A DNA stretch of 64,000 bases from Xanthobacter dioxanivorans. GTDB taxonomy: Bacteria > Pseudomonadota > Alphaproteobacteria > Rhizobiales > Xanthobacteraceae. Position numbers and translations under genes: made by a program. The stretch covers positions 124,001 to 188,000 of the forward strand of contig NZ_CP063362.1 in NCBI RefSeq assembly GCF_016807805.1, in the 5' to 3' direction. Of the stretch, positions 11,959-29,335 are shown in pieces; within the stretch, counting starts at the first letter, position 1; each line of letters opens with the position of its first letter. Below the pieces are notes generated by a model. That model was not told the DNA's origin. It searched no databases and was given only the letters and a program-made list of their open reading frames with translations.

Positions 11959-11963
11959 GGCCC

Positions 11964-13364: not shown

Positions 13365-14726
13365 CTACCATGCGTTCCGGCGGGTGGGATCGAAGCGCTT
13401 CTTGAGGCCCGCCCAGCAGTCCACATAGTTCGCCTGCAGCTGCGGCACGCCGGCCGCATAGGCGGTCACGCGCTGGGGCAGGCGCGTCTCGAACATGAAG
13501 GCGAGTGTGTTCTCCAGCTTCACTGGTGTCTGCGCGCCGGTGGAGGCGTGCTCGAACGCCTGCTCGTCCGGCCCGTGGGGCAGCATCAGATTGTGCAGGG
13601 AGAAGCCACCCGGCGCGAAGCCCGCGGGCTTCGCGTCGTACACGCCATAGATGAGGCCCATGAATTCGGACATGATGTTGCGGTGGTACCACGGCGGACG
13701 GAAGGTGTTCTCCGCCACCATCCAGCGCTCGGGGAAGATCACGAAATCGATGTTGGCCGTGCCCGGCGTGCCGGAGGGCGAGGTGAGCACGGTGAAGATG
13801 GACGGGTCCGGGTGGTCGAACAGCAGCGCGCCCACCGGCGAGAAGTGCCGCAGGTCGTATTTGTAGGGGGCGTAATTGCCGTGCCAGGCCACCACGTCGA
13901 GGGGTGACTGGCCGATCTCGGTCACGTGCAGCTCCCCGCCCCATTTCACATAGAGGAGGGAGGCCTCCTCCTTGTCCTCATAGGCGGCGACGGGGGTGAG
14001 GAAATCGCGCGGGTTGGCGAGGCAGTTGGCGCCGATGGGGCCGCGATCCGGCAGGGTGAAGGTGGCGCCGTAATTCTCGCACACATAGGCGCGGGCCGGC
14101 CCGTCGATCAGCTCCACCTTGAAGATGACGCCGCGCTGGATGAGGCAGATCTCGCCGGGCGCGATGTCGATGACGCCGAACTCGGTACGGAAGCGCAAGG
14201 CGCCTTCCTGCGCCACCACCAGCAGCTCGCCATCGGCATTGAAGAAATATTCGTTCTCCATGGAGGCGGTGACGAAGGCCATGTGCGCCGCCATGCCGCC
14301 TTGGCTGTCGACGTCGCCGGCGGTCGTGATGGTGCGCAGGCCGGCAATGAAGGTGAGCTTCTCCTGCGGCAGCGGAATGGCACTCCAGCGATACTGTCCG
14401 AGCGCGATGTCGCTTTCGTCACGGGCCATCGGGGCGGTACGGATGAAGCCCTTATCCACCCTGTGATACCGGCCCGAATGCTTCACCGCGGGGCGGATCC
14501 GGTAGAGCCAGGAGCGCTCGTTCACCGCCTGCGGCGCGGTGAAGGGCGAGCCCGAGAGCTGCTCGGCATAAAGCCCGTAATTGATCTTCTGCGGAGAGTT
14601 GCGGCCGATGGGCAGGGTGCCGTCCAGCGCCTCGGTTTCAAAGGAATTGCCGAAGCCGGACATGTAGCCGGGCACGAGAGCGCTCGACCTTGTTCCTTCG
14701 AGAGTGGGTTGGGGCAGAATGTTCAT
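13365..14726 (-). CDS. hmgA: Homogentisate 1,2-dioxygenase
   Basis: A 453-residue protein matching homogentisate 1,2-dioxygenase along its whole length ([19 protein letters not shown] at the N-terminus, [12 protein letters not shown], and the iron-binding region around [17 protein letters not shown] and [17 protein letters not shown]). It opens the homogentisate ring with oxygen to give maleylacetoacetate, using non-haem Fe(II). fahA starts 88 bases downstream and maiA follows, so this is the complete central pathway. The gene is divergent from a MarR-type regulator with only 56 bases between starts, which implies shared control. Confidence 0.97.
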
Positions 14727-15275: not shown

Positions 15276-16520
15276 TCAGGATTTGCCCAGCAGGCACCCC
15301 GTCTCGCCGGCGGGACGGAACACCTCTGCCGCGGGCAGCGTGGTGACCGGCTTGTAATAGTCCCACGGAGCCTTGCTCTCGGCGGGGCTCTTCACCTCGT
15401 AGAGGGTGAGGTCGTACAGCACGCGCCCGTCCGCCCGGATGGATGCGGCGTGACCGAAATAGTCCACCGGCAGGCGCCGCATCTCGGCATTGACCTTGCC
15501 CGCCTCATCGGTACCCGAGGCGGCCACGGCGCTGAGGTAATGGGTGATCGAGGCATAGACCGAAGCCTGCTGCTTGGTGGGCATCCGGCCCATCTTGGCG
15601 AAGAAGCGCTTCGCGAAAGCGCGGGCCTTGTCGTTCTGGTCCCAGTAGAAGCCGGTGGTGACGCGCAGGCCCTTGGCCAGTGGCAGGCCGATGGCGTGCA
15701 CATCGGTGATGAAGACCAGGAAGCCGGCCACCTTCTGCCCTCCAGAGGTAATGCCGAACTCTGCCGCCTGCTTGATGGAATTGGTGGTGTCCCCGCCGAC
15801 ATTGGCAAGGCCCACCACTTCGGCCTTGGAGGCCTGGGCCTGGATGAGGAAGGATGAGAAATCGGCGGTGCCAAGGGGATGGCGCGTGGCGCCGAGCACC
15901 TTGCCGCCGGCCGCGGTGACCGCCGCCGACGCGTCGCGCTCCATGGCGTGGCCGAAGGAATAGTCCACGGTGAGGAAGAACCAGGTCTTGCCGCCGGCGG
16001 CGGTCACCGCCCGCCCGGTGGCATTGGCCAGGGCATAGGTGTCGTCCGCCCAATGGGTGGAATAGGGAGAGCAGGCCTTGCCGGTGAGATCGGAGACGGC
16101 GGCACCGGAGATCAGCAGGGTTTTCTTCCGCTCGCGAGCAATCTCCTGCGCGGCCAGCGCAACGGAGCTGACCGGCAGATCGGCCACCGCGTCCACGCCG
16201 CCCTCGTCGAACCATTTGCGCAGTGTCGCGCCACCGATGTCCGCCTTGTTCTGGTGATCCCCGGCGATGATCTCGATGGGAACGCCAGCGACCTTGCCGC
16301 CGAAATCCTCCGCGGCAAGCTGGGCAGCCACCACCGACCCCTTGCCTCCGATGTCAGCGAACTGCCCGCCCATGTCGCCGAGCACGCCGATGCGCACCAC
16401 GGTGTCGGAGATCTGGGCACGGGCGCTGGCCGGCAACAGAACCGACGTGGCGAGAATGACCGAAGTGGCGAGCTTGCAAAGCCTCACCCGCACCCGGCGC
16501 GATTGATCCGTCCGTTGCAT
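15276..16520 (-). CDS. ABC transporter solute-binding protein, branched-chain amino acid/aromatic type
   Basis: A 414-residue periplasmic protein. A signal peptide (residues 1-37, ending LLPASARAQ) is followed by the type I binding fold typical of Liv-type receptors (VVRIGVLGDMGGQFADIGG, IEIIAGDHQNKADIG, VDYSFGHAMERD). ATG 16520 follows an AGGGAGGAAG site. It is an orphan: no permease or ATPase is adjacent, but a full Liv-type importer lies at 24.7-29.3 kb, so it may supply a second receptor to it. It follows the MBL-fold gene by 107 bases on the same strand and probably binds an aromatic acid. Confidence 0.9.
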   Translation of the reverse strand: MQRTDQSRRVRVRLCKLATSVILATSVLLPASARAQISDTVVRIGVLGDMGGQFADIGGKGSVVAAQLAAEDFGGKVAGVPIEIIAGDHQNKADIGGATLRKWFDEGGVDAVADLPVSSVALAAQEIARERKKTLLISGAAVSDLTGKACSPYSTHWADDTYALANATGRAVTAAGGKTWFFLTVDYSFGHAMERDASAAVTAAGGKVLGATRHPLGTADFSSFLIQAQASKAEVVGLANVGGDTTNSIKQAAEFGITSGGQKVAGFLVFITDVHAIGLPLAKGLRVTTGFYWDQNDKARAFAKRFFAKMGRMPTKQQASVYASITHYLSAVAASGTDEAGKVNAEMRRLPVDYFGHAASIRADGRVLYDLTLYEVKSPAESKAPWDYYKPVTTLPAAEVFRPAGETGCLLGKS

Positions 16521-16627
16521 GTTCTTCCTCCCTTGGGCGCGCGGCATCGCTCCCTGCGACGCAGCGCGGGTTGGTTCTTTCTTCTTGTCGAGACCTTGGC
16601 GCCGCCGTTCGCTGGCGGCGCCCGCTT

Positions 16628-17602
16628 TCAGCCCTCGAGGGCGCTCCACATCTCGATGTCGCGCTCGGCGGTCCAGATCCGCGGCGTGTCGATGCCCTGC
16701 GCCTCGTCATAGGCCCGGGAGATGTCGAACGGCATGCAGTGGTCGAAGATGACCCAGTGCCCGTACTTCGGCCGCATCTGCCGCATGGCCTCGGCATAGA
16801 CGGTCTTCAGATCGTGGCCGGCCTTCACCCCCGCCTCGGCGATGGCGAAGGCATCGCGCAGGAAGGCGCGGGTCTCGTCCAGCCCCGCCTTGATCTGCGC
16901 GGGGGTGACGAGGGCCTCGCCGCGGCCCGGCACCAGCTTTTCGGCGGAAAGCGTTTCCAGCCGGTCGAGGGTCGACGGCCAGTCGCGGAAATGGGCGTCG
17001 CCGCAATAGGGCGTGGCGCCGAATTCCACGAGGTCGCCGGAGAACAGCACCTTCTCCTTCGGCAGCCAGGCGACGGTGTCGCCGCGGGTGTGGCCGCGCC
17101 CCGCATGGATGATGCGCACCTCGCGCGATCCGAGCCACAGCGTCATTTCCTGGTGGAAGGTGACGGTGGGCCAGGTGAGGCCCGGAATGGTCTCCCGCGC
17201 CCGGAACAGGCGGGGAAAGCGCTGGATCTCGGACGCCATGTCCTGCGCCCCGCGCTCGACGATCATGTCGCGGGTCACGTCGCTGGCGATGACGTTGACA
17301 CGCTCCTCGAAGCCCGCCGCCCCCAGCACGCGCACGGCGTGGTAGTGGGTGAGGAGGATGTGGCGGATGGGCTTGTCGGTGATGGTGCGGATGCACGCCA
17401 CCAGTTCCTGCGCCATCACCGGCGTCGCTCGCGCATCGATGACGAGCACGCTGTCGTCGCCGATGACGACGCCGGAATTGGGATCGCCCTCGGCGGTGAG
17501 GGCGAAGACGCCGTCCGCGAGCTCGGTGAAGGTTTCCTTCTTCTCGACGAGATCGGCCTGGCTCGCAAAAACCTTGGCCGCAGTTCCTGAAGCGGTGCTC
17601 AC
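16628..17602 (-). CDS. MBL-fold hydrolase with an altered metal site
   Basis: A 324-residue metallo-beta-lactamase-fold protein (GVFALTAEGDPNSGVVIGDD start, later AGRGHTRGDTVAWL and VLFSGDLVEFG). The usual HxHxDH motif reads THYHAVRVLG, so the Asp and last His that bind the second metal are absent, while the downstream His and Asp are present. I believe a branch of the family shares this THYHAV version, so it need not be decay. The reaction is unknown; the context (aromatic catabolism, MarR regulators) suggests hydrolysis of a lactone or thioester intermediate. It is divergent from the MarR gene at 17.8 kb. Confidence 0.78.
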   Translation of the reverse strand: MSTASGTAAKVFASQADLVEKKETFTELADGVFALTAEGDPNSGVVIGDDSVLVIDARATPVMAQELVACIRTITDKPIRHILLTHYHAVRVLGAAGFEERVNVIASDVTRDMIVERGAQDMASEIQRFPRLFRARETIPGLTWPTVTFHQEMTLWLGSREVRIIHAGRGHTRGDTVAWLPKEKVLFSGDLVEFGATPYCGDAHFRDWPSTLDRLETLSAEKLVPGRGEALVTPAQIKAGLDETRAFLRDAFAIAEAGVKAGHDLKTVYAEAMRQMRPKYGHWVIFDHCMPFDISRAYDEAQGIDTPRIWTAERDIEMWSALEG

Positions 17603-17710
17603 GCGGTCGTCCTCCCGTTCGGGTGTAAGGCACGCCGGAACGGATCGGACCGGGTCACTTGAACCCGAGGTCCGCCGGACGCTTCCTTGATCCCCAACAG
17701 TTTGATATAG

Positions 17711-17757
17711 CGCAATTGGTTGCGACTGAGACGATGTTATACAGTTGCAACTGCAAC
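17711..17757. promoter_or_regulatory. Palindromes between the MBL-fold and MarR genes
   Basis: Two symmetrical elements lie in the roughly 200-base divergent region. CGCAATTGGTTGCG at 17711-17724 has five-base perfect arms. GTTGCAACTGCAAC at 17744-17757 has six-base perfect arms and overlaps the perfect 12-base palindrome CAGTTGCAACTG (17742-17753). Both suit a MarR dimer controlling the genes on either side. The surrounding sequence is AT-richer than the coding DNA. Confidence 0.5.
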
Positions 17758-17806
17758 AGTCAAGGGCCGGATGGCGGCCTGGATGGAAAGGTGCGGGTCG
17801 CGAACC

Positions 17807-18274
17807 ATGTCAAAGCGCAAGGTGGAGCGATTGAACCTGCTGAAATTCATGCCGTTCCGGCTCAACCGGCTGGCAGCGGAATTCTCCAACGCGCTGGCCA
17901 TGGAATACATGGCCCGCTTCGGCATCGACATTCCCGAATGGCGGGTGCTCGCGACGCTGGGCCTGCACGATGAGCCGCGCAGTGCCCAATATGTGGTCCG
18001 CTGCACCCGCACGCACAAATCCCGCATCAGCCGGGCGGTGGGCGCGCTGGTGACGCTCGGCTGCGTCGCCCGCCTGGAGAGCACGGATGACCGCCGCGAA
18101 GTGATGCTCGAACTCACGCCCAAGGGGCGGGCCATCTACAACGAGCTCGTGCCGCTGCTGCTGAAGCGCGAGGAGGCGATCCTCGCCTGCCTCACGCAGG
18201 AGGAGCGGGCCCAGCTCGATCACCTCATGGACAAGCTAGAGAAGAGCTTCGATCTCGTGCAGTGCGCGGACTGA
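17807..18274 (+). CDS. MarR-family transcriptional regulator
   Basis: A 155-residue MarR protein with dimerisation helix (FMPFRLNRLAAEFSNALAMEYM), recognition region ([45 protein letters not shown]) and wing (STDDRREVMLELT). ATG 17807 (MSKRKVERL) is chosen on family length; in-frame ATGs at 17771 and 17783 are possible. It is divergent from the MBL-fold gene and meets the next MarR gene tail to tail with nine bases between. Most likely it represses the MBL-fold/binding-protein operon and itself; the ligand is unknown. Confidence 0.87.
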   Translation: MSKRKVERLNLLKFMPFRLNRLAAEFSNALAMEYMARFGIDIPEWRVLATLGLHDEPRSAQYVVRCTRTHKSRISRAVGALVTLGCVARLESTDDRREVMLELTPKGRAIYNELVPLLLKREEAILACLTQEERAQLDHLMDKLEKSFDLVQCAD

Positions 18275-18283
18275 AGCCGGACA

Positions 18284-18748
18284 TCAGCCCCGTTCGATCA
18301 GGCCCTGGGCCCGGGCCAGGAGCTTGTCCATGGCCTTTTCCAGGACCGCACGTTCTTCCACATCGAGATCTTCGAGCAGGTAGTCTTCCCGGGCGCGGGC
18401 CAACGGCACGATCTTCTGGAACAGGATGCGCCCCGCCGCCGTCAGGGTGAGGATCTTCGCCCTCCGGTCGGTGTCGTCGGGCGCGCGGGTGATGAGGCCG
18501 GCTTCCTCGAGGCGGCTCACCGCGCGGCTCACCTGCATCTTGTCGAGCGTGGAATAGGCGCCGATCTCCTTTGCCGCCATGCCGTTGTTGGCGCCGAGCG
18601 CCGCCAGCACGCGCCATTCGGCCCGGCTGATGTGGAAGCGGTCGGCATAGAGCTGCGCCACAGCGACGGACACCCGCTCCGCCAGCACCGCCAGGCGGTA
18701 GGGGAAGAAGTCCGAGAGCGCGAACGGAACCGGCTCGTGTTTCGACAT
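18284..18748 (-). CDS. MarR-family transcriptional regulator
   Basis: A 154-residue MarR protein (FFPYRLAVLAERVSVAVAQ dimerisation helix; ISRAEWRVLAALGANNGMAAKEIG and LDKMQVSRAVSRLEEAGLI DNA-binding helices; DDTDRRAKILTLT wing; acidic C-terminal helix). It is divergent from the VOC/monooxygenase genes. Two closely similar candidate operators, one near each start, lie between them, so it probably controls both itself and the hydroxylation genes. Confidence 0.88.
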   Translation of the reverse strand: MSKHEPVPFALSDFFPYRLAVLAERVSVAVAQLYADRFHISRAEWRVLAALGANNGMAAKEIGAYSTLDKMQVSRAVSRLEEAGLITRAPDDTDRRAKILTLTAAGRILFQKIVPLARAREDYLLEDLDVEERAVLEKAMDKLLARAQGLIERG

Positions 18749-18957: not shown

Positions 18958-19497
18958 ATGCTCGTCGAGAAGATTCACCACGTCGCCTATCGCTGCAAGG
19001 ACGCCAAGCAGACGGTCGATTTCTACAAGCGCATCCTCGACATGGACCTGATCGGCGCCATCGCCGAGGACAAGGTTCCCTCCACCAAGGAGCCGGACCC
19101 CTACATGCACATCTTCCTGGATGCGGGTTCCGGCAATATCCTCGCCTTCTTCGAGCTGCCCAACTCCCCGCCCATGGGCCGTGACCCCAACACCCCCGAA
19201 TGGACCCAGCACATCGCCTTCCAGGCGCCGGACCTGGCGGCGCTGGAGACGGTGAAGGCGAAGGCCGAGGCGGCCGGCGTCGAGGTGGTCGGGCCCACCG
19301 ACCACGATATCTTCAAGTCCATCTATTTCTTCGATCCGTCCGGCCACCGGCTGGAGCTCGCCGCCTGGACCACCACGCCGGAGACCCTGGCGCGGCTGAA
19401 GGCGGTGGCCCCTGCCATGGTCGAGGAATGGGCGCAGACGAAAAAGCCGCCGCGCCATGCCGCCTGGCTGCACGAGAAGGAGTTTTCCGCCAACTGA
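18958..19497 (+). CDS. VOC-family protein (glyoxalase/extradiol dioxygenase fold)
   Basis: A 179-residue protein with two beta-alpha-beta-beta-beta modules. Four residues sit at the usual metal positions: H8 (KIHHVAYRC), E66 (LAFFELP), H85 (EWTQHIAFQ) and E133 (HRLELAAW), so a metal centre is likely. A C-terminal tail of about 35 residues (AMVEEWAQTKKPPRHAAWLH) is not part of the core fold. ATG 18958 follows AAGGGAGGA. It could be a small ring-cleavage dioxygenase, a lactoylglutathione-lyase relative or an isomerase. Its position as first gene before an aromatic-ring FAD monooxygenase favours aromatic catabolism. Confidence 0.8.
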   Translation: MLVEKIHHVAYRCKDAKQTVDFYKRILDMDLIGAIAEDKVPSTKEPDPYMHIFLDAGSGNILAFFELPNSPPMGRDPNTPEWTQHIAFQAPDLAALETVKAKAEAAGVEVVGPTDHDIFKSIYFFDPSGHRLELAAWTTTPETLARLKAVAPAMVEEWAQTKKPPRHAAWLHEKEFSAN

Positions 19498-19596: not shown

Positions 19597-21204
19597 ATGA
19601 TGAGCACCTACACCTATCCAAAGTACCCCTACCGCATCTCCGCGGAGCAGGAGGCGGGCCGCCTCCTGCTCCATCCGGTGGTGGTGATCGGCGCCGGTCC
19701 CGTGGGGCTCACGGCGGCCCTCGACTTCGCCAGCCGCGGCATTCCCACCGTGGTGCTGGACGACAACGACACCGTTTCCATCGGCTCGCGCGCCGTATGC
19801 TACGCCAAGCGCCCGCTGGAGATCTGGGACCGCCTCGGCTGCGGCGAGCGCATGGTGGCGAAAGGCGTGAGCTGGCGCGTGGGCAAGGTCTTCTTTGAGG
19901 AAGACCTGCGCTATCAGTTCGACCTCCTGCCCGAGCCGGACCACAAGATGCCGGCCATGATCAACCTCCAGCAATACTATCTGGAGGAGTTCATGGTGGA
20001 AGAATGCGCCCGTCAGCCGCTTGTGGACCTGCGCTGGAAACACAAGCTGCTCAGCCTGCGGCAGGACGGTGACTTCGCCACCCTTGTGGTGGAAACCCCC
20101 GACGGCATCTTCAACATGGAGGCGCAATGGGTGGTGGCCTGTGACGGCGCCAATTCCGACACCCGCAAGATGGTGGGGGCGGAGTTCACCGGCCAGTTCT
20201 TCCATGACCGGTTCCTCATTGCCGACGTGGTGATGAAGGCGGATTTCCCCACCGAGCGCTGGTTCTGGTTCGATCCGCCGTTCCATCGCAATCAGTCGGT
20301 GCTCCTGCACCGACAGGCGGACGATGTGTGGCGCATCGATTTCCAGCTCGGGTGGGACGCCGACCCCACCGAGGAGAAGAAGCCGGAGAACATCATCCCC
20401 CGTGTCCAGGCCATGCTGGGACCGGATACGCAGTTCGAGCTGGAATGGGCCTCGGTCTATCAGTTCGCCTGCCGGCGCATCGACCGGTTCCGCCATGGCC
20501 GGGTGGTCTTCGCCGGCGACAGCGCCCACCAGGTTTCCCCCTTCGGTGCCCGCGGCGCCAATTCCGGGGTGCAGGACATCGACAATCTCAGCTGGAAGCT
20601 GAAGCTTGTACTGGACGGGCTGGCGCCCGAGGCCCTCATCGATACCTATCACGAGGAACGGGCGCTGGCGGCGGACGACAACATCGCCAATTCCACCCGC
20701 TCCACCGACTTCATCACCCCGAAGAGCCCCATGAGCCGGCGCTTCCGCAATGCGGTGCTGGAGCTTGCGGAGGAGTATCCCTTCGCGCGGCCGCTGGTGA
20801 ATTCCGGCCGGCTTTCCATGCCCACGCCCTATCTCCATTCCTCCCTCAACTCGGCGGATGACGCGCCGTTCGCCGGCTGCATGATGCCGGGCGCCAATTG
20901 CGCGGACGCCCCGGTGGTGGTGGACGGACGGGAGTGCTGGTTCCTCGGGCTCCTCGGCGCCGGCTTCACGGTGGTTACCTTCGGGGCGGCCCCGGTGGCG
21001 GACGTGGTGTGGGACGGCATCCGCGCCCCGGTCATCCGTGTGGGATCCGACGTGACGGACGCGAAGGGACGCCTCGCCGAGCGCTATGACGGCGCACCGG
21101 GCACCACCTATCTCATCCGCCCCGACCAGCACGTGGCCGCGCGCTGGCGCACGTTCGACGCCCAGAAGATCAAAAGCGCGATCCGGCGCGCCGTGGCCGC
21201 CTGA
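19597..21204 (+). CDS. FAD-dependent aromatic-ring monooxygenase (MhpA/MhaA-like)
   Basis: A 535-residue class A flavoprotein hydroxylase. The FAD-binding GAGPVG motif is at about residues 32-37, the DG motif region at about 183 (VVACDGANSD), and the GD motif FAGDSAHQVSPFGARGANSG near 310. A thioredoxin-like C-terminal domain ends DQHVAARWR. It hydroxylates a phenolic ring using NAD(P)H and oxygen. ATG 19597 (or 19600) follows GGGAGA. A 76-residue DUF2783 protein follows 13 bases downstream. With hmgA nearby, the best analogue is the MhaA/MhaB 3-hydroxyphenylacetate 6-hydroxylase of Pseudomonas, which makes homogentisate; 3-(3-hydroxyphenyl)propionate hydroxylase is the other option. Confidence 0.85.
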   Translation: MMSTYTYPKYPYRISAEQEAGRLLLHPVVVIGAGPVGLTAALDFASRGIPTVVLDDNDTVSIGSRAVCYAKRPLEIWDRLGCGERMVAKGVSWRVGKVFFEEDLRYQFDLLPEPDHKMPAMINLQQYYLEEFMVEECARQPLVDLRWKHKLLSLRQDGDFATLVVETPDGIFNMEAQWVVACDGANSDTRKMVGAEFTGQFFHDRFLIADVVMKADFPTERWFWFDPPFHRNQSVLLHRQADDVWRIDFQLGWDADPTEEKKPENIIPRVQAMLGPDTQFELEWASVYQFACRRIDRFRHGRVVFAGDSAHQVSPFGARGANSGVQDIDNLSWKLKLVLDGLAPEALIDTYHEERALAADDNIANSTRSTDFITPKSPMSRRFRNAVLELAEEYPFARPLVNSGRLSMPTPYLHSSLNSADDAPFAGCMMPGANCADAPVVVDGRECWFLGLLGAGFTVVTFGAAPVADVVWDGIRAPVIRVGSDVTDAKGRLAERYDGAPGTTYLIRPDQHVAARWRTFDAQKIKSAIRRAVAA

Positions 21205-21217
21205 AGGAGGAATGCCC

Positions 21218-21448
21218 ATGTTGCGGGAAGCCCCGAGACACACCAGCCTCGTGCTGACGCCGAATATCCCGGACCCCGACGGCTACTACGAGGAGCTGAT
21301 CGACAGCCAGCGGAACCTCAGCGAGGAAGAGGCGCAGCTCATGAACTGCAAGCTCATCCTCCTGCTCGCCAACCATATCGGCAACCGCGCGGTGCTGACC
21401 GAAGCGTTGAAGGCGGCCGGCGGCAAGTTGGAGTGCGACCACCGCTGA
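21218..21448 (+). CDS. DUF2783 small protein, probable monooxygenase partner
   Basis: A 76-residue protein (TPNIPDPDGYYEELIDSQRN, then SEEEAQLMNCKLILLLANHI, ending ALKAAGGKLECDHR) with two or three predicted helices. I start it at ATG 21218, seven bases after the strong GAAGGAGG site; ATG 21212 would leave only one base. It directly follows the FAD monooxygenase. A distant paralogue occupies the same place behind the second FAD monooxygenase at 24.3 kb. The repeated pairing suggests a coupling or stabilising subunit like MhaB; that function is inferred, not visible. Confidence 0.8.
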   Translation: MLREAPRHTSLVLTPNIPDPDGYYEELIDSQRNLSEEEAQLMNCKLILLLANHIGNRAVLTEALKAAGGKLECDHR

Positions 21449-21463
21449 CTGCAACCTCCTCGC

Positions 21464-21511
21464 GCGCAATCGCCGTGCCGCCTTGTCGGACCGGCGGTGT
21501 TGCGATTGCGC
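21464..21511. terminator. Bidirectional hairpin between the monooxygenase and LuxR genes
   Basis: GCGCAATCGC (21464-21473) pairs perfectly with GCGATTGCGC (21502-21511), and an inner CCGCC/GGCGG stem follows a short bulge. It lies 15 bases after the DUF2783 stop and between two convergent genes, a typical place for a shared terminator. There is no strong T-run, so efficiency is uncertain. Confidence 0.5.
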
Positions 21512-21598
21512 TTGAGGAACGTGGCCGCGGGGCGGCGTCCTTCCGCACCGGACCGCCGCACCGGACCGCCTCACGCCGTTCGTTCCACGCAGCCCGTC

Positions 21599-22438
21599 TC
21601 ACATGGCGAGACCGGCGCATTGGGCGAACAGCTCGCCCCGGCTGGTGATGGAGAGCTTGCCGTAGGCGCGCTTGCGGAAGGTGACGACGGTTTCCTCGCT
21701 GACGTGCAGCTCGAGCGCGATGGCCGCCACCGAGAATCCGCAGGCGATCAACGCGCAGACCTGCGCCTCCCGCGGCGACAGGCCCGGAAAGCGCTCCTTC
21801 AGGTATGATTCCGCGCGCGTCCTGGCGGTACCGGCACCGAATTGCCCGCCGGTGAGAGCATCATGCTTGTGCAACAGCTCGGCCAGCAATGTGCCGCTGG
21901 TGTCCGGACCGAGGCCGGGAACGGCATCCGGCGCCGCGTCACGAAAGTAAAAATTCACATAGACGACACGTTCACCGCGTCTTGAGATCAGCGCCATCTT
22001 TCCAGAGAGGTCGGCACCGGAGAAAAATCGGCTTCGATAATGTTCATCGTAGATATCTGTTGAGACAAAGCTGCGCGCCATGAAGTCGCCGCCCTGCCGC
22101 CCACCCTCCAGATGGCGCTGCAGCACCGGATCGCGCTCGAACTGGCCGCGCGCGTAGCTGCGGCACAGGGTTTCCACGAGACGCGGCTCCCTCGGACGGT
22201 AGGCGAGGGCACAGCGCACCCGCTGCTGTTCCAGAAAGAACGTGGTCACCTGTGCCGCGCCGGTGAGCGCCGCATATTCCTGGGCCAGCTCGTCCATGAA
22301 GTTCGCATGGCCGAGAACCGAGATGAGGCGGCAGACCGCACCGACCTCGCTGCCGCCGGCAAGCGTATCCGGCCGCTGCGGGCCGAGCCGGGGAGGCTGG
22401 GCGGTCCCTTGGCCCTGGCGTGCATGAAGCGTCGGCAT
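21599..22438 (-). CDS. LuxR-family transcriptional regulator
   Basis: A protein of up to 279 residues with a C-terminal LuxR/GerE helix-turn-helix (LSPREAQVCALIACGFSVAAIALELHVSEETVVTFRKRAYGKL, about residues 218-262). The N-terminal half has no recognisable autoinducer-binding or receiver domain. The first 30 or so residues are low-complexity, and a later start (for instance the valines near residue 32) is possible. It is divergent from the second monooxygenase/DUF2783/Liv importer series, which it most likely controls; an inverted repeat before that operon is a candidate site. Confidence 0.85.
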   Translation of the reverse strand: MPTLHARQGQGTAQPPRLGPQRPDTLAGGSEVGAVCRLISVLGHANFMDELAQEYAALTGAAQVTTFFLEQQRVRCALAYRPREPRLVETLCRSYARGQFERDPVLQRHLEGGRQGGDFMARSFVSTDIYDEHYRSRFFSGADLSGKMALISRRGERVVYVNFYFRDAAPDAVPGLGPDTSGTLLAELLHKHDALTGGQFGAGTARTRAESYLKERFPGLSPREAQVCALIACGFSVAAIALELHVSEETVVTFRKRAYGKLSITSRGELFAQCAGLAM

Positions 22439-22597
22439 GGCGGGCGAGCGTTTCCTTTATTTAACCCATGAAAGCATTCCCGCGCGTCGACGACAAGCGG
22501 AAGGGGCTTCGAATTCGGCGTGGCTCCGTGCGATCGCATGATCCCGCCCGCTGTCCCCGTTTGAAGGGACAGATCAGCGGCGGCCCAGGGGTTAGTT

Positions 22598-22643
22598 CGT
22601 CGAGGCGTGGAATTGCGCGTCTACCGACGAAATCTCCTCGACG
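22598..22643. promoter_or_regulatory. Inverted repeat before the second monooxygenase operon
   Basis: CGTCGAGG (22598-22605) and CCTCGACG (22636-22643) are perfect eight-base arms 30 bases apart, ending 17 bases before the monooxygenase start. It could be the operator of the divergent LuxR protein or a leader hairpin near the ribosome-binding site. Confidence 0.4.
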
Positions 22644-22660
22644 CACAAGAAGAGCCAAGA

Positions 22661-24340
22661 ATGCACACGCCAGAAACGCAGCCGAGAGCATCGGTTTTCT
22701 ACACCTACAAGATCTATCCGTTCCGCCGCCCCGAGGAACTGGTGGGAGGCGCGGCCAGGGCCCCGGTGGTCATCGTCGGCGCCGGCCCCGTAGGCCTGCT
22801 CACCGCCATCGATCTTGCCCGCTACGGGGTGCGGAGCGTGGTGCTGGAGGCCGAGCAGCAGGTCTCCCACGGCAGCCGCGCCATAGTGCTCACCCGCCGC
22901 TCCATGGAGATCCTGCAGCACGCCGGCGTCGCCGAGCCGTTCGTGCGCAAGGGCCTGCAATGGTCGAAGGGGCGTTCCTTCTTCCGCGGGAAGGAGGTCT
23001 ACCAGATGGTGATGCCCCACGATTCCAACGACCGGTTCCTGCCCGGCCTCAACATCTCCCAGCAATATATCGAGGAATATCTCGTGGACGCCGCCGAGCG
23101 CACGGGCCTCGTGGACCTGCGCTGGGGCTCCAAGGTCACCGACATCCACCAGAACGCCGATGCCGTGCTCCTCAGCATCGACACCCCCGAGGGTGAATAT
23201 GCGCTCACCGCCGATTACGTGGTAGCGGCGGACGGCGGCCGTTCCACGGTGCGGCGCCTGCTGGGCCTGCGCATGGAGGGCCGGGCGTACGCGGGCAATT
23301 TCGTCATCGCCGACATCAAGGCGAACATCGACCTGCCCACCGAGCGCCTGTGCTTCTTCGATCCCGACTGGAACCCGGGCAACAACGTGCTGGTGCACCG
23401 CCAGCCCGACGACATCTGGCGCCTCGACTTCCGCCTGCCGGACGGGGAGACGGCGGAGGAGGCGCTGGAGCGCTCCCGCCTCGCCGCGCGCATCGACCTC
23501 ATCCTGGCCATGATCGGAAGGAAGGTGCCGTGGGAGCTGGACTGGGCCACGGTCTATTCGGCCTCCACCCTGACCTTGCCCGATTATGTGAGCGGCCGTG
23601 TCGCCTTCGTCGGCGATGCCGCACATCTCCTGCCCATCTTTGGCGTACGCGGGGCCAACACCGGCTTCCAGGACGCGGGCAACCTCTCCTGGAAGCTCGC
23701 GCTCGTGGCGAAGGGCTTGGCGCCGCCGCGCCTGCTGGAGAGCTATTCGCAGGAGCGCGTCACCGCCGCCCGCGAGATCTGCGACGAGGCGGCCAAGAGC
23801 ACCCGCTTCATGAGCCCGCCAACCCCTGGCTATCGGCTGATGCGCGACGCGGTCCTCTCCTTGAGCCTCAGCCAGGATTTCTGCAGGAACCTGCTCCACT
23901 GGCGCACCTCGCGGCCCCACGTCTATGCCCACTCCGCCCTCAACAGCCCGTCCGCGGACGCCTTCATCACCGGTCCCGCGCCGGGCGAGCCGGCGCTCAA
24001 TGCGCGGATCGCCGAGGGAGACCATCTGCAGGACCACTTCGGTCCCGGCTTCCAGCTCCTGTGCTTCCCCGCGACGCCCGCCGATGTCGCGCCGCTGGCT
24101 GCCGCAATGCATGCCAGCGGCCTGCCGGTCACGGTCCTGGCGCTGGGACGGGGCGCTGCCGAGGGGGCAGATGTCGTGCTTCCAGATCCCGATGGCGTGG
24201 TGGCGGCCCGCTACGGCGCGGCGCCCGGCACCGCCTATCTGCTGCGGCCGGACCTTCACGTATGCGCCCGCTGGCGCGCCCCCACCCCGGAGGGCGTGAC
24301 GGCGGCGCTCACCACTGCCATTGCCGGAGAGCGTCCATGA
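22661..24340 (+). CDS. FAD-dependent aromatic-ring monooxygenase (second copy)
   Basis: A 559-residue class A flavin hydroxylase, clearly related to the one at 19.6 kb but diverged: same FYTYKIYPFRR-type leader, VVIVGAGPVGLLTAIDLARYG FAD motif near residue 43, VVAADGGRSTVRRLLG, and FVGDAAHLLPIFGVRGANTGFQD. The C-terminal thioredoxin-like domain ends RPDLHVCARWRAP. Its stop overlaps the start of another DUF2783 gene (ATGA), so the pair is translationally coupled. The Liv-type importer genes follow about 350 bases later. It may act on a different hydroxyphenyl-alkanoate from the first copy. Confidence 0.85.
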   Translation: MHTPETQPRASVFYTYKIYPFRRPEELVGGAARAPVVIVGAGPVGLLTAIDLARYGVRSVVLEAEQQVSHGSRAIVLTRRSMEILQHAGVAEPFVRKGLQWSKGRSFFRGKEVYQMVMPHDSNDRFLPGLNISQQYIEEYLVDAAERTGLVDLRWGSKVTDIHQNADAVLLSIDTPEGEYALTADYVVAADGGRSTVRRLLGLRMEGRAYAGNFVIADIKANIDLPTERLCFFDPDWNPGNNVLVHRQPDDIWRLDFRLPDGETAEEALERSRLAARIDLILAMIGRKVPWELDWATVYSASTLTLPDYVSGRVAFVGDAAHLLPIFGVRGANTGFQDAGNLSWKLALVAKGLAPPRLLESYSQERVTAAREICDEAAKSTRFMSPPTPGYRLMRDAVLSLSLSQDFCRNLLHWRTSRPHVYAHSALNSPSADAFITGPAPGEPALNARIAEGDHLQDHFGPGFQLLCFPATPADVAPLAAAMHASGLPVTVLALGRGAAEGADVVLPDPDGVVAARYGAAPGTAYLLRPDLHVCARWRAPTPEGVTAALTTAIAGERP

Positions 24341-24525
24341 TCGAAAGGAACATCACCGACACCGCGCTCGAAGCCGCCTATGACGGCATCGCCGAGGCCA
24401 TCGACGCAACCCCTGAAGACAAGCGCCCCCTGTTCCTGGCCAAGCTTGCTCTGGTGCTGGCGAATCTGGTGGGTGACGAAGGCCGGATCGCCGACGCGGT
24501 GAGCGCCGCCCGCTGCGATCTTTAG
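24337..24525 (+). CDS. DUF2783 small protein (second copy)
   Basis: A 62-residue protein (ITDTALEAAYDGIAEAIDAT, RPLFLAKLALVLANLVGD) that aligns with the 76-residue protein at 21.2 kb through the Tyr, the KL.L.LAN.+G segment and the Ala-rich end. ATG 24337 overlaps the monooxygenase stop by four bases. Co-occurrence behind both hydroxylases argues for a dedicated accessory subunit. Confidence 0.8.
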   Translation: MIERNITDTALEAAYDGIAEAIDATPEDKRPLFLAKLALVLANLVGDEGRIADAVSAARCDL

Positions 24526-24688: not shown

Positions 24689-25567
24689 TTGCAGGATCTG
24701 GCCCAATTCGTCGCCTCGGGCCTCACCCGGGGGGCGATCTACGCGCTCGTGGGCGCAGGCTTCGCCATCATCTACAGCGCCAGCAACGTCATCAATTTCG
24801 CCCAGGGTGAATTCGTCATGCTGGGCGGCATGGTGACGGCCTATCTCGTGGTCACCACCGGCCTGCTGCCGCTCGTCCTGGCGGTGCCGCTGGCCGTTCT
24901 CGTCACCGTTCTGGTGGGCATCGCCCTCTATCGCTTCGCCGTCGCCCAGGTGGAGCCCTCGCGGCTCGCCACCATCATCATCATCACCATCGGCAGCTCC
25001 ATCCTCATCCGCGGCGTGGTGGAGGTGGTGCTGGGCAAGCGCGAGTTCGTCTATCCTGCCTTCACCGATACCGGCCCCCTCCACCTGTTCGGCGCCGCCA
25101 TCGATGTCCAAAGCCTGTGGGTGCTGGGCACGCTGGTATTGGTCGCCATCGGCCTCAAGCTGTTCTTCGACCACACGCTGTTCGGCAAGGCCATGCGCGC
25201 CACGGCGCAGAGCCCGATGGCGGCGCAGCTGGTGGGCATCGACGTGCGCAACGTGCTGGTGGCGAGCTTCGCGCTCTCGGCCGCCCTCGGGGCGCTGGCC
25301 GGCGCCCTCGTCACGCCCATCACCCTCACCCGCTTCGACGTGGGCCTGATGCTCGGCCTCAAGGGCTTCGCTGCCACAATGCTCGGCGGCCTCGGCAGCG
25401 CCTACGGCGCGCTGGCCGGCGGGCTCCTGCTCGGCCTCGCGGAGGCGTTGGCCGGCGGCTACATTTCCTCCGGTTACCAGGATGCGGTGGCGTTCCTGCT
25501 CATTCTCGGCCTCCTCGTGCTGCGACCCGCCGGCCTGTTCGGGCGCGTCAAGCTGGAGCGGGTGTGA
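24689..25567 (+). CDS. livH: Branched-chain-type ABC importer permease LivH
   Basis: A 292-residue inner-membrane permease with about eight hydrophobic helices (GAIYALVGAGFAIIYSASNVINFAQGEF at the start is diagnostic of LivH). It starts with TTG at 24689 behind a GGAGGA site. With LivM it forms the channel of a high-affinity importer; the aromatic-catabolism context suggests aromatic acids rather than leucine as substrate. livM follows after three bases. Confidence 0.9.
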   Translation: MQDLAQFVASGLTRGAIYALVGAGFAIIYSASNVINFAQGEFVMLGGMVTAYLVVTTGLLPLVLAVPLAVLVTVLVGIALYRFAVAQVEPSRLATIIIITIGSSILIRGVVEVVLGKREFVYPAFTDTGPLHLFGAAIDVQSLWVLGTLVLVAIGLKLFFDHTLFGKAMRATAQSPMAAQLVGIDVRNVLVASFALSAALGALAGALVTPITLTRFDVGLMLGLKGFAATMLGGLGSAYGALAGGLLLGLAEALAGGYISSGYQDAVAFLLILGLLVLRPAGLFGRVKLERV

Positions 25568-25570
25568 GCC

Positions 25571-26581
25571 ATGGCGACGACTGAACCCGTCGTCCCCGAC
25601 CGGGCCGTGACCGAGCCGCTGACCGCCTTCCGCCCGCTGCCGGTGGGGGTGCCGTTGGCGCGCCTCGCGGTGCTGTGCCTGGTCCTCGCGCTGGCGCCCT
25701 TGGCCTTCTCCAATGCCTTCCACTATGACGTGGCGGTCAAGATCGCCGTCAACGCCATCGTCTGCGTCGGGCTCAACCTGCTGGTGGGCTATGCCGGCCA
25801 GATCAGCCTCGGCCATGCCGCCTTCTTCGCCCTCGGCGCCTATGGCACCGCGCTTCTGCCCCTGCGTCTCGGCCTGCCGGCCATCCCGGCAGCGCTGCTC
25901 ACCGCCGCCGTGGTGGGGGTGTTCGCCGCGCTGGTGGCGCTGCCGATCCTGAAGCTGAAGGGCCACTACCTGGCCATGGCCACCCTCGGCCTCGGCTCCA
26001 TCATCTCCATCGTCCTCAACCGCGAGATCGGCCTCACCGGCGGACCGGACGGCCTCACCGTGCCGGCGCTGGTGATCGGCGGGGTGAAGGTGCGGGCCAT
26101 CGAGACCTGGTACGTGGTGGTGGCGGTGGGCGTGGTCGTCGCGGTGTATCTGGCGGAGAACCTCATCCACTCGCCGTCCGGCCGCGCGCTGCGGGCCCTG
26201 CACAGCTCGGAGATCGCCGCCTCCACCTCGGGCATCGACGTGGCGCGGGGCAAGGCGCGGGTGTTCGCCCTGTCGGCGGTCTATGCCAGCCTCGCCGGCT
26301 CGCTGTTCGCGTGGGCCGAACGGTTCGTGACGCCCGCCGACGCCAGCTTCCTGCACTCGGTGGAATTCCTCACCATGATCGTGCTGGGCGGGCTCGGCTC
26401 CACCTATGGCGCGCTGGTGGGCGCGGGGCTGCTCACCGCTCTGCCGCAGGTGTTCGCCGGAGTGGCGGAATACAAGAACATCGCCATCGGCCTCGTGCTC
26501 ATCCTCACCATGGTGTTCCTGCCCAGGGGGATCGTGCCGACCCTCACCGGCCTCGCCGCACGCGGGAGGCGTCGGCCATGA
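25571..26581 (+). CDS. livM: Branched-chain-type ABC importer permease LivM
   Basis: A 336-residue permease with a 35-residue cytoplasmic leader and about nine membrane helices, including LLVGYAGQISLGHAAFFALGAYG and the EAA-like LSAVYASLAGSLFAW region typical of LivM. Its stop overlaps the livG start (ATGA), so the importer genes are translationally coupled. Confidence 0.9.
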   Translation: MATTEPVVPDRAVTEPLTAFRPLPVGVPLARLAVLCLVLALAPLAFSNAFHYDVAVKIAVNAIVCVGLNLLVGYAGQISLGHAAFFALGAYGTALLPLRLGLPAIPAALLTAAVVGVFAALVALPILKLKGHYLAMATLGLGSIISIVLNREIGLTGGPDGLTVPALVIGGVKVRAIETWYVVVAVGVVVAVYLAENLIHSPSGRALRALHSSEIAASTSGIDVARGKARVFALSAVYASLAGSLFAWAERFVTPADASFLHSVEFLTMIVLGGLGSTYGALVGAGLLTALPQVFAGVAEYKNIAIGLVLILTMVFLPRGIVPTLTGLAARGRRRP

Positions 26582-27384
26582 CCGCCGCGACATCACCTTC
26601 TTCCGTCCCCCTTCTGGTGGTGCAGAGCCTCGTCAAGGCGTTCGGTGGCGTGCGCGCCGTGGACGACGTGAGCTTTTCCGTCGCGCCGGGCCGCATCCAT
26701 GCCCTCATCGGCCCGAACGGGGCCGGCAAGACCACCCTGTTCAACCTGGTGGCGGGCGTCGTCACGCCCAGTTCCGGACAGATGACCTTCGCCGGCGCCG
26801 ACATCACCCGTCTGCCGCCCATGCTGCGGGCCCGCGCCGGCCTGCAACGCACATTCCAGAACCTGCAGACCTTCGGCGAGCTGACGGCGCTGGAGAATGT
26901 GATGGTGGGGCGGCACATCCATTCCAACACCCGTTTCCTGCCCGCCATGCTGGGACTTCCCGGCGTGCGCCGTTCCAACCGCGCGGCGCAGGACAAGGCC
27001 GAGGCGCTGATGCGGACGGTGGGCCTTTCCGCCTATCTCGGCGCCCGCGCCGACGCCCTGCCCTACGGCGCCCTGAAGCGGCTCGACATCGCCCGCGCGC
27101 TCGCCACCGAGCCGAGCCTGCTGCTGATGGACGAACCGGCCGCCGGGCTCAACCCTTCGGAGACCGTCGCCATGACGGAGCTGATCCGCCGGATCACGGC
27201 GGGCGGGGTCACCGTCGTGCTGGTGGAGCACGACATGAAGCTGGTCATGAACCTGTCCGAGCACATCGTGGTGCTCGATCGTGGCAGGAAACTCGCCGAG
27301 GGGTCGCCGGAGGCGGTGCGCGCCGACCCGGCGGTGATCGCCGCCTATCTCGGCTCCGGCACCACCAGGCGGAGACGGAAATGA
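26578..27384 (+). CDS. livG: Branched-chain-type ABC importer ATP-binding protein LivG
   Basis: A 268-residue ATPase with Walker A GPNGAGKTT, Walker B LLLMDEPAAGLNP, an atypical signature reading PYGALKRLDIARAL in place of LSGGQ-type (common in LivG), and switch histidine in VEHDMKLVMNLSEHI. ATG 26578 overlaps the livM stop. It energises the importer with the LivF partner. Confidence 0.9.
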   Translation: MTAATSPSSVPLLVVQSLVKAFGGVRAVDDVSFSVAPGRIHALIGPNGAGKTTLFNLVAGVVTPSSGQMTFAGADITRLPPMLRARAGLQRTFQNLQTFGELTALENVMVGRHIHSNTRFLPAMLGLPGVRRSNRAAQDKAEALMRTVGLSAYLGARADALPYGALKRLDIARALATEPSLLLMDEPAAGLNPSETVAMTELIRRITAGGVTVVLVEHDMKLVMNLSEHIVVLDRGRKLAEGSPEAVRADPAVIAAYLGSGTTRRRRK

Positions 27385-28094
27385 GCGGGGCGCTGCTCGA
27401 AATCACCGACCTGTCGTCCGCCTACGGCCATGTGATCGCCCTGTCCAGCGTCACGCTGGAGGTGCGGCGGGGCGAGATCGTCACCCTGGTGGGCTCCAAC
27501 GGGGCGGGCAAAACCACGCTCCTGCGCTGCATCAGCGGAGTGCAATCCGTCGCCGCCGGCACCATCCGCCTCGAGGGGGCGGACATCACCCGCGCCCGGG
27601 CTTCGGCGCGGGTCGCAGCGGGCATCGCCCAGTCGCCGGAGGGGCGGATGGTGTTCGCCGAGCTGTCGGTGGACGACAATCTGGAGCTGGGCGGCTACCT
27701 GCGCCGCAAGGCGGAGCGCAAGGCGACGCTGGAACAGGTTTTCACCTTGTTTCCCGCCCTGGCGGAGCGGCGCGACAGCCTCGCCGGCGCCTTGTCCGGA
27801 GGCCAGCAGCAGATGGTGGCCATCGGCCGGGCCCTGATGACCGGCCCGAAGCTGCTGCTGCTGGACGAACCGTCCATGGGGCTTGCCCCGGTGGTGGTGG
27901 AACAGATCTTCGACGCCATCGACCTCCTGTGCGCGGACGGCATGACCATTCTCCTCGTCGAGCAAAACGCGTCCGCCGCACTCGCTCTGGCCGACCGGGC
28001 CTATGTGATCGAGAACGGTGCCATCGTCCTGTCCGGCGAGGGCCCGGCTCTGGCCGCCGACGAACGGGTCCGCGCCGCCTATCTCGGCGCCTGA
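27381..28094 (+). CDS. livF: Branched-chain-type ABC importer ATP-binding protein LivF
   Basis: A 237-residue ATPase (Walker A GSNGAGKTT, signature LSGGQQQM, Walker B LLLLDEPSMGLAP, switch EQNASAALALADRAYV). It overlaps the livG stop by four bases. A short GC hairpin follows, before the binding-protein gene. Confidence 0.9.
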   Translation: MSGALLEITDLSSAYGHVIALSSVTLEVRRGEIVTLVGSNGAGKTTLLRCISGVQSVAAGTIRLEGADITRARASARVAAGIAQSPEGRMVFAELSVDDNLELGGYLRRKAERKATLEQVFTLFPALAERRDSLAGALSGGQQQMVAIGRALMTGPKLLLLDEPSMGLAPVVVEQIFDAIDLLCADGMTILLVEQNASAALALADRAYVIENGAIVLSGEGPALAADERVRAAYLGA

Positions 28095-28110
28095 CCCCGC
28101 CCAAAGCGCA

Positions 28111-28126
28111 CCCGCCGCACGGCGGG
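28111..28126 (+). other. GC hairpin between livF and the binding-protein gene
   Basis: CCCGCCG and CGGCGGG are perfect seven-base arms around two bases; the real stem is probably six pairs with a four-base loop. It may protect mRNA ends or set different levels for the binding protein and the membrane components. Confidence 0.4.
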
Positions 28127-28159
28127 AACAACAACATCACCCATCAACGGGAGGAACAC

Positions 28160-29335
28160 GTGACACTCAAGGCTACCCTCGCCGCCCTCGCTACAGGCTT
28201 CGCGCTCGCCGCGGCGCCTGCCTTCACGCTCGCCGCGGGGCCTGCCATCGCGGAGCCGATCCGGATCGGCGCCTATGTGTCGGCCACCGGTCCCAACGCC
28301 TTTCTCGGCGACCCCGAGATGAAGACGCTGAAGCTCTTAGTGGACTCCATCAACGCCGCAGGCGGGATCAAGGGCCAGAAGCTGGAGCTCTTCGCCTACG
28401 ATGATGCGGGCGACGCCACCCAGGCCCGCTCCTTCGCCCTGCGCCTCGTCAAGCAGGATAAGGTGGTGGTGGTCCTCGGCGGCAGCAACACGGGCACCAC
28501 CATGGCCGCCGTGCCCGTGTTCCAGGATGAGGAGATCCCCTTCATTTCGCTGGCGGGTGCCATCGTCGTCACCTCGCCCACCAAGGAGTGGGTGTTCAAG
28601 GTACCGGCCACCGACCGCATCGCCGCCGAGCGAAGCCTCGCGCACATGAAGGCGCGCGGCCTCACCAAGGTGGCCATGCTCAATGGCTCCGACGGCTACG
28701 GCCAGTCCGGCCGAGAGCAGACCCTGAAGGCCGCCAAGGAGGTGGGCGTGGACATCGTCGCCGACGAGATCTATGCGCCGACCGACACGGACATGACGGC
28801 CCAGCTCACCCGCATCCGAAATTCGGGGGCGCAGGCGATCCTCAATTTCGGCATCGGCGCAAGCCCCTCCATCATCGCGCGCAACGTCAAGCAGCTCGGC
28901 CTTACACAGGCACTCTACCTGTCTCCGGCGGTCGCCTCCCGTGCCTTCCTGGAGAATACCGGCGCCGCCGCCGAGGGCGTGCACATCCCGGTGTCCGCCG
29001 TGCTGCTGGCGGGGAAGCTGCCGGCCTCCCATCCCCAGGCGGCCGTCGCCGAGGCGTTCCGGACGGCCTTTGAATCCAGCCTCAAGGAACCCGTCTCCTA
29101 TGGTGCGGGCATCGCCTATGACGCGCTGAAGATCGCCGTTGGCGCCATCGAGCGCGTGGTCGCGGCGGGCAAGCCCGTGACCCCGGAGGCGATCCGCGCC
29201 GAGATTGAGAAGACCAGGGGCTATGTGGGCCTCAACGGCGTGGTCAACATGACGCCGCAGGACCACATGGGCCTCGACAGCTCCGCCTTTATCATCGCGG
29301 TGGTGAAGGACGGCGACTGGCAGCTCGCCCCATAG
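28160..29335 (+). CDS. ABC transporter solute-binding protein, branched-chain amino acid/aromatic type
   Basis: A 391-residue periplasmic receptor. The signal peptide (about residues 1-31) is followed by a Peripla_BP_6-type fold (IRIGAYVSATGPNAFLGDPE, KLELFAYDDAGDATQARSFA, LGGSNTGTTMAAVPVFQDEEI). It starts with GTG at 28160 after a GGGAGGA site. As last gene of the livHMGF operon it is the cognate receptor. A strong terminator follows 22 bases after its stop. Confidence 0.9.
   Translation: MTLKATLAALATGFALAAAPAFTLAAGPAIAEPIRIGAYVSATGPNAFLGDPEMKTLKLLVDSINAAGGIKGQKLELFAYDDAGDATQARSFALRLVKQDKVVVVLGGSNTGTTMAAVPVFQDEEIPFISLAGAIVVTSPTKEWVFKVPATDRIAAERSLAHMKARGLTKVAMLNGSDGYGQSGREQTLKAAKEVGVDIVADEIYAPTDTDMTAQLTRIRNSGAQAILNFGIGASPSIIARNVKQLGLTQALYLSPAVASRAFLENTGAAAEGVHIPVSAVLLAGKLPASHPQAAVAEAFRTAFESSLKEPVSYGAGIAYDALKIAVGAIERVVAAGKPVTPEAIRAEIEKTRGYVGLNGVVNMTPQDHMGLDSSAFIIAVVKDGDWQLAP

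Follow-up and report, generated by a model that had tools for sequence, protein, structure and literature searches.

Gene organization of the locus

The window, that is, the whole 64,000-nucleotide stretch of the Xanthobacter dioxanivorans genome analyzed here, carries between positions 19597 and 24525 two genes for class A flavin adenine dinucleotide (FAD) monooxygenases, hereafter hydroxylases A and B. Each is directly trailed by the gene of a tiny protein, of 76 amino acids (aa) in pair A and of 62 aa in pair B, as claimed in a preliminary description of this DNA. In this study, we argue that in both pairs the small protein, of the DUF2783/MhaB type, is very likely an obligate accessory subunit of the FAD hydroxylase, because the genes adjoin, co-occur across genomes, and are sometimes fused. 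The two pairs are laid out as follows.

19597 to 21204, plus strand: hydroxylase A, class A FAD monooxygenase of 535 aa (PF01494, E=1.1e-62; NF006002/PRK08132)
21218 to 21448, plus strand: small partner A, DUF2783 protein of 76 aa (PF10932), with AAGGAGG just 5' of the gene
22661 to 24340, plus strand: hydroxylase B, class A FAD monooxygenase of 559 aa, of the MhaA-like clade (NF006002/PRK08132)
24337 to 24525, plus strand: small partner B, divergent DUF2783/MhaB-like protein of 62 aa, its gene overlapping that of hydroxylase B by ATGA

The start of small gene A lies 13 bases past the hydroxylase A stop codon. The two hydroxylases are 39% identical over 551 columns, and both pass the NF006002/PRK08132 model (cut-off, 416 bits), with 844.6 bits for A and 613.5 bits for B. 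The small proteins had been assigned to DUF2783 and described as resembling each other, and both statements need some qualification. Small protein A passes the PF10932 gathering cut-off of 25 bits with 93.5 bits (E=6.2e-27), whereas small protein B reaches 24.2 bits (E=2.7e-5) and thus stays 0.8 bits short of it. The closest named DUF2783 proteins come from Xanthobacter autotrophicus. BLASTP did not align the small proteins with each other; the resemblance appears in the profiles of their two families, which hhalign aligns over 55 columns (probability 95.6; E of 1.1e-8, the value for that one comparison) around the Tyr and the KLxLxLAN..G residues named earlier. Judged by these profiles, small protein B is a DUF2783 relative lying just outside the Pfam model. 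Elsewhere in this genome, no other protein passes the NF006002 cut-off, and the best two of the three PF10932 matches adjoin A and B, the third (13.3 bits) lying at another place. For four weaker class A hydroxylase relatives of the same genome, no match to either small protein was found.

Linkage and fusion of DUF2783 with the hydroxylase

In a sample of the phylum comprising 199 genomes from 121 genera, PF10932 and NF006002, each counted above its cut-off, were found in the identical 28 genomes, while 171 genomes had neither and none had one alone. The combinatorial chance of this co-occurrence is ~1e-34 with kinship ignored, and the 28 positive genomes, spread over 21 of the 121 genera, are partly dependent. 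Starting from DUF2783 in the same sample, a same-strand hydroxylase gene lay just upstream in 27/27 foreign loci. A second sample, of relatives, comprised 61 genomes, 24 of which had a PF10932 match at E <= 0.1; here, the hydroxylase lay beside 20 of the 21 foreign DUF2783 loci above the cut-off. At the exception (L084), which belongs to the same genus, a gene like that of the MarR1 regulator described below is followed by a C-terminal DUF2783 remnant with no hydroxylase nearby, so that apparently the whole module was lost together. Among three foreign matches below the cut-off, one (L087) lies with a B-like hydroxylase and two (L085 and L086) with none. The linkage had been put forward as the point on which the pairing could fail; it was observed in 47 of the 48 foreign over-cut-off loci, the exception being a decayed one.

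A search that starts from the hydroxylase is free of the bias that DUF2783 as the query would introduce. The hydroxylase set from named genomes consisted of the best 80 of at least 207 relatives, 54 nearer to A and 26 nearer to B, and a small partner was detected by profile in 79/80 of these loci (53/54 for A and 26/26 for B). The contig of the partnerless locus (L192) ends 168 bases past the hydroxylase gene. Some of these B loci had gone into the training of the B small-family profile, which flatters the B scores, the lowest of them being 69.9 bits; the A profile was not locus-trained. Throughout the 199 genomes, the partner accompanied all 36 over-cut-off hydroxylase loci (28 A-like or of the third group described below, and 8 B), 3 of which share one frame with it, in a count that merges two contig-end pieces of genome G004 and two same-frame matches of genome G178. 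Moreover, a pooled set that was partly gathered through DUF2783, with 246 records reduced to 157 by removing identical tails, holds 108 A hydroxylases with an A-type partner and 42 B hydroxylases with a B-type partner. A B-like partner was found on two A-side records and one weak record, one record had no partner, and three were cut by contig ends.

Plasmid records gave 48 matches to hydroxylase B and 35 to small protein A. Six plasmid hydroxylase records were examined: the small gene is annotated in four B-like and one A-like record, and in the sixth, unannotated, the partner was found by tblastn. In the database records examined, the small gene is labeled merely DUF2783 or hypothetical.

Loci from three different families (L050, L062, and L088) have a single open frame running from the hydroxylase into DUF2783, and a fourth, at a contig end (L063), has a C-terminal DUF2783 part in its hydroxylase frame. 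The DUF2783 part is C-terminal in 4/4 fused frames read, and PF01494 and PF10932 occur together in 8 of the 120 listed database relatives of one fusion, the query being counted. The correlation of hydroxylase and partner distances (r of 0.49 for A and 0.81 for B, with 0/2000 permutations as high) was discarded as evidence of contact, since shared descent explains it.

The model of small protein A consists of three helices (20-31, 36-54, and 57-66) with a mean predicted local distance difference test (pLDDT) score of 87.8. We propose that this small three-helix protein would bind close to the C-terminal end of the hydroxylase and, like MhaB in published work, would couple NADH oxidation to ring hydroxylation.

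Two hydroxylase clades and their neighbors

The genes surrounding the two pairs in the window are the following.

11323 to 11994, minus strand: maiA, maleylacetoacetate isomerase (TIGR01262, 262.7 bits; cut-off, 171.05)
12000 to 13276, lower end approximate, minus strand: fahA-like fumarylacetoacetase frame, start codon at 13276, named by likeness
13365 to 14726, minus strand: hmgA, homogentisate 1,2-dioxygenase (TIGR01015, 649.3 bits; cut-off, 510.75)
15276 to 16649, minus strand: periplasmic binding protein adjoining the next gene (PF13458, E=1.4e-99)
16628 to 17602, minus strand: metallo-beta-lactamase (MBL)-fold protein with HYHAVR instead of HxHxDH (PF00753)
17807 to 18274, plus strand: MarR-type regulator MarR1 (PF12802)
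18284 to 18748, minus strand: MarR-type regulator MarR2 (PF12802, PF01047)
18958 to 19497, plus strand: VOC-fold protein, directly 5' of hydroxylase A (PF00903)
21599 to 22438, minus strand: LuxR-type (GerE) regulator adjoining pair B (PF00196)
24689 to 29335, plus strand: branched-chain-amino-acid-type ABC transporter genes 3' of pair B (LivH-, LivM-, and LivF-like, Peripla_BP_6)

The MBL gene is separated from hydroxylase A by two MarR genes and the VOC gene, and pair A from pair B by the LuxR-type regulator. Every one of the transporter genes scores below the NCBIfam equivalog cut-offs. The pairs had been placed beside hmgA, maiA, and fahA; this is borne out for hmgA and maiA, and the fahA frame is there as well, with an apparent shift close to its 3' end (~12090) that may stem from a sequencing error or from a genuine lesion.

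A tree of 107 of the 155 hydroxylases with four outgroup rows, built by a rapid search and read as unrooted because its outgroup branches are very long, sets the 29 B rows apart from all others by a branch with support of 100; the remaining hydroxylase rows are A, save for the small third group described next. Thirteen positions, each conserved at 88% or more within both clades, distinguish A from B; among them is the loop after GD(S/A)AH, with SPFGARG in A and PIFGVRG in B. We also observed a third, deeper group of NF006002-like hydroxylases (L049, L240, L241, L242, and L244), each with a DUF2783-like partner.

Neighbors were counted by tblastn (E <= 1e-6) with the window's genes against the 80 named loci, with flanks of up to 5 kb, shorter at contig ends. 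The MBL gene was matched in 46/54 A loci and 0/26 B loci (Fisher p of 2.4e-14, kinship ignored). The homogentisate genes were matched in 27/54 A loci (two at just 25% identity) and 0/26 B loci for hmgA, 24/54 and 6/26 for fahA, and 12/54 and 0/26 for maiA; the corresponding counts were 14/54 and 5/26 for the VOC gene and 0/54 and 8/26 for the LuxR gene. Outside the named set, B-type genes can likewise adjoin homogentisate genes: a B pair on an Acinetobacter plasmid has fahA, maiA, and VOC genes alongside, and at one locus (L051) hmgA and maiA sit between an A and a B hydroxylase. A VOC-fold protein 60 to 65% identical to that of the window was seen at L108, L114, L117, L120, L144, L145, L148-L150, and L152. 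This small protein occurs with A and B loci alike, often next to fahA or maiA, and may act later in homogentisate breakdown.

Two palindromes, CGCAA-N4-TTGCG and TTGCAACTGCAA, lie at 17702-17765 between the MBL gene and MarR1. Both are largely retained in five same-genus loci, CGCAA-N4-TTGCG being found also in L084, and they are probable MarR operators. Regulation by FNR/FixK was considered, as one of the two FNR-like boxes of the 64 kb lies at 17702; because this box overlaps the CGCAA-N4-TTGCG palindrome, which is kept before a MarR gene, a MarR operator is the simpler reading.

HxHxDH is the usual metal motif of MBL-fold hydrolases. In the MBL-fold companion of clade A, it is replaced by HYHAVR in 94/94 linked sequences (130 of 133 hits kept, giving 93 distinct sequences, plus the window's own), all of which have His171, Asp175, and Asp190 and 93/94 of which have His288. 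By comparison, HxHxD stands near the matching place in 20 of the 22 PF00753 matches of this genome, the exceptions being the companion and L275. The change presumably affects the second metal site, two of whose usual residues are replaced. We infer for the companion a function other than ordinary di-metal hydrolysis.

Proposed functions of the two pairs

MhaA/MhaB of Pseudomonas putida U is a 3-hydroxyphenylacetate (3-HPA) 6-hydroxylase, for which a 566-aa flavoprotein and a 60-aa coupling protein are reported in a homogentisate context (PMC3053370), and P. putida MhaAB is reported to be unable to use 4-hydroxyphenylacetate (4-HPA) (PMC10983741). Pair B, with 559 and 62 aa, has the sizes of MhaAB (~566 and ~60 aa) and shares a clade with Pseudomonas proteins of ~566 to 570 aa. 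Pseudomonas lini and P. karstica have one NF006002 match each, of type B and of ~570 and 566 aa, respectively, with small open reading frames of 60 and up to 68 aa. On balance, we lean toward pair B being MhaAB, which would convert 3-HPA to homogentisate in one step, a likeness judged by lengths and by other Pseudomonas proteins. The parallel with MhaA/MhaB had been drawn for both pairs; it fits pair B well by these lengths and Pseudomonas relatives, and pair A, which belongs to a distinct clade with an MBL partner, is not merely another MhaAB. The accompanying suggestion that the pairs might each supply homogentisate from a substrate of their own is compatible with the existence of two clades and with what surrounds them. 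On a Diaphorobacter plasmid (L109), a B-type pair lies one gene away from a cytochrome P450/oxidoreductase, a neighbor that recalls OhpA of the reported 2-hydroxyphenylacetate route (PMC8449657).

For pair A, a different activity comes into view. A 4-HPA 1-hydroxylase is listed for Xanthobacter, Delftia, Azoarcus, Halomonas, and others; its HpaH flavoprotein is reported to give an unidentified metabolite Z, which HpaC, a 1,4-dihydroxyphenylacetate mutase, turns into homogentisate (PMC9338888, PMC8058095). According to the same sources, Delftia hpaH and hpaC constructs produced no homogentisate, and the authors suspect that another sequence is needed. Neither did hpaH and hpaC of Ruegeria pomeroyi and Halomonas olivaria in Escherichia coli, in work cited by these authors as unpublished (PMC9338888). 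In the loci compared here, hydroxylase A, DUF2783, and the MBL-fold protein are found together in Ruegeria arenilitoris (L166) and Halomonas sp. PA16-9 (L193).

We tentatively propose that pair A could represent the HpaH flavoprotein of 4-HPA 1-hydroxylase, with the clade-specific MBL-fold protein as the candidate second enzyme; pair A is likened to HpaH/HpaC by published descriptions. Hydroxylase A would convert 4-HPA to a quinol-acetate, which the second enzyme, for which the MBL-fold protein is the candidate, would rearrange to homogentisate. Hydroxylation at C1 would need a second enzyme and hydroxylation at C6 would not, which fits the presence of the MBL gene at A loci and not at B loci. 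A bolder version, which we hold only lightly, takes DUF2783 as the overlooked component of 4-HPA 1-hydroxylase and the MBL-fold companion as a quinol-acetate mutase, not a hydrolase. A missing DUF2783 would explain why the cloning of hpaH and hpaC gave no homogentisate: if type A is 4-HPA 1-hydroxylase, DUF2783 would be the part absent from the failed reconstitutions. We know of no case of an MBL-fold protein catalyzing a 1,2-shift, and one doing so with an altered metal motif would, if true, be new chemistry for the fold.

Alternative explanations

The preliminary description had named a predicted interface between hydroxylase and small protein as a check, and here none was predicted reliably. 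In the AlphaFold model of one fusion (P0121), the hydroxylase part is confident, and the top Foldseek matches, over most of the length, include PieE, GrhO5, and HbpA; the DUF2783 part has block-mean pLDDT values of ~48 to 70 and no reliable interface, which counts against a subunit. DUF2783 could instead be a same-pathway factor, e.g., an FAD-loading chaperone or a small regulator, given that linkage and co-occurrence alone cannot tell a subunit from an assembly factor and that DUF2783 has no match among solved structures (no meaningful E-value by sequence and no Foldseek match at E <= 0.001). We consider this very unlikely, as the in-frame fusions in three families favor a part that stays with the enzyme and a coupling role is reported for MhaB (PMC3053370).

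The 4-HPA assignment of pair A meets several points that weigh against it. Among the 28 phylum-sample genomes with the system, TIGR01015 hmgA is present in 21 (versus 29 of the 171 genomes without it) and missing from 7, so that homogentisate cannot be taken as the product in every genome. As HPPD occurs in 26/28 of them, the hydroxylase is not needed for homogentisate there, and an absence of HPPD was accordingly given up as support for a role in homogentisate supply. The reviewed list of C1-hydroxylating organisms is loose, as it includes P. putida, which is reported on the 3-HPA route (PMC9338888, PMC10983741). In P. xenovorans LB400, the hydroxylase adjoining hmgA1 is reported to be induced by 3-HPA, to be more abundant with 3-HPA than with 4-HPA, and to be 47% identical to MhaA (PMC3053370, PMC10983741); if it is of type A, it speaks against 4-HPA as the substrate of A. 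The identity to the two Pseudomonas B proteins is 44% for named Burkholderia B proteins, 39% for an Achromobacter B protein, and 36 to 39% for five A proteins (three from named Burkholderiaceae genomes), an indirect comparison in which 47% would fit type B better. The LB400 induction would also agree with both pairs being 3-HPA 6-hydroxylases, that is, MhaAB paralogues with different regulation or affinity, with the MBL and VOC proteins serving another step, and so would the NF006002 membership of both hydroxylases and the homogentisate genes near both pairs. This reading appears unlikely, however: A and B lie apart in the tree, the 13 positions that distinguish them, the loop after GD(S/A)AH among them, are strongly conserved, and the MBL partner occurs at A only across the 80 named loci. 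Moreover, Halomonas titanicae is reported to use 4-HPA and not 2- or 3-HPA (PMC8058095), and the record of Halomonas sp. PA16-9 has an A-type cluster. Hydroxylase A could also use another aromatic acid or coenzyme A ester (e.g., hydroxyphenylpropionate or a hydroxybenzoyl compound), with only a partial link to homogentisate, as the seven system genomes lacking TIGR01015 hmgA would allow. We regard this as quite unlikely in view of the hmgA, fahA, and maiA matches at A loci and of the higher share of hmgA in genomes with the system.

Comparison with known systems

DUF2783, a Pfam family of unknown function, gains from this study a testable role as the obligate small partner of one flavin hydroxylase group, and expression constructs may omit its gene, annotated as it is merely as DUF2783 or hypothetical. 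In a literature search that left most subscription papers outside, we found no report linking DUF2783 to MhaB, to 3-HPA 6-hydroxylase, or to 4-HPA 1-hydroxylase, and within the same scope the term itself was found only in an nnrR-mutant table (PMC6710368). There, the Bradyrhizobium diazoefficiens genes bll2330-bll2329-bsl2328 are given as VOC, FAD oxidoreductase, and DUF2783, changed in the nnrR mutant. Their order is the same as in module A; the operon is tabulated for an nnrR mutant, whereas the neighboring regulators in the window are of the MarR type.

Pair A differs from MhaAB in belonging to the other clade (36 to 38% identity to the two Pseudomonas B proteins), in its longer DUF2783 partner, and in its additional MBL-fold companion. 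That companion in turn lacks the HxHxDH motif of canonical MBL-fold hydrolases. HpaH/HpaC of Delftia acidovorans (EC 1.14.13.18 plus mutase) resembles pair A in combining a flavoprotein with a second protein, for which pair A has a candidate; unlike in pair A, a small partner is unmentioned in the available part of the source (PMC9338888).

MhpA and other PF01494 class A hydroxylases have the FAD_binding_3 domain and the class A fold in common with A and B, although the MhpA-named models stay far below their cut-offs (e.g., 193.8 versus 546 bits for hydroxylase A). To our knowledge, MhpA works without a small partner, and class A flavin hydroxylases are generally regarded as enzymes of one protein each. 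What is new here, compared with these systems, is that a known two-component arrangement now spans an entire Pfam family and takes in a second clade, which has an additional partner.

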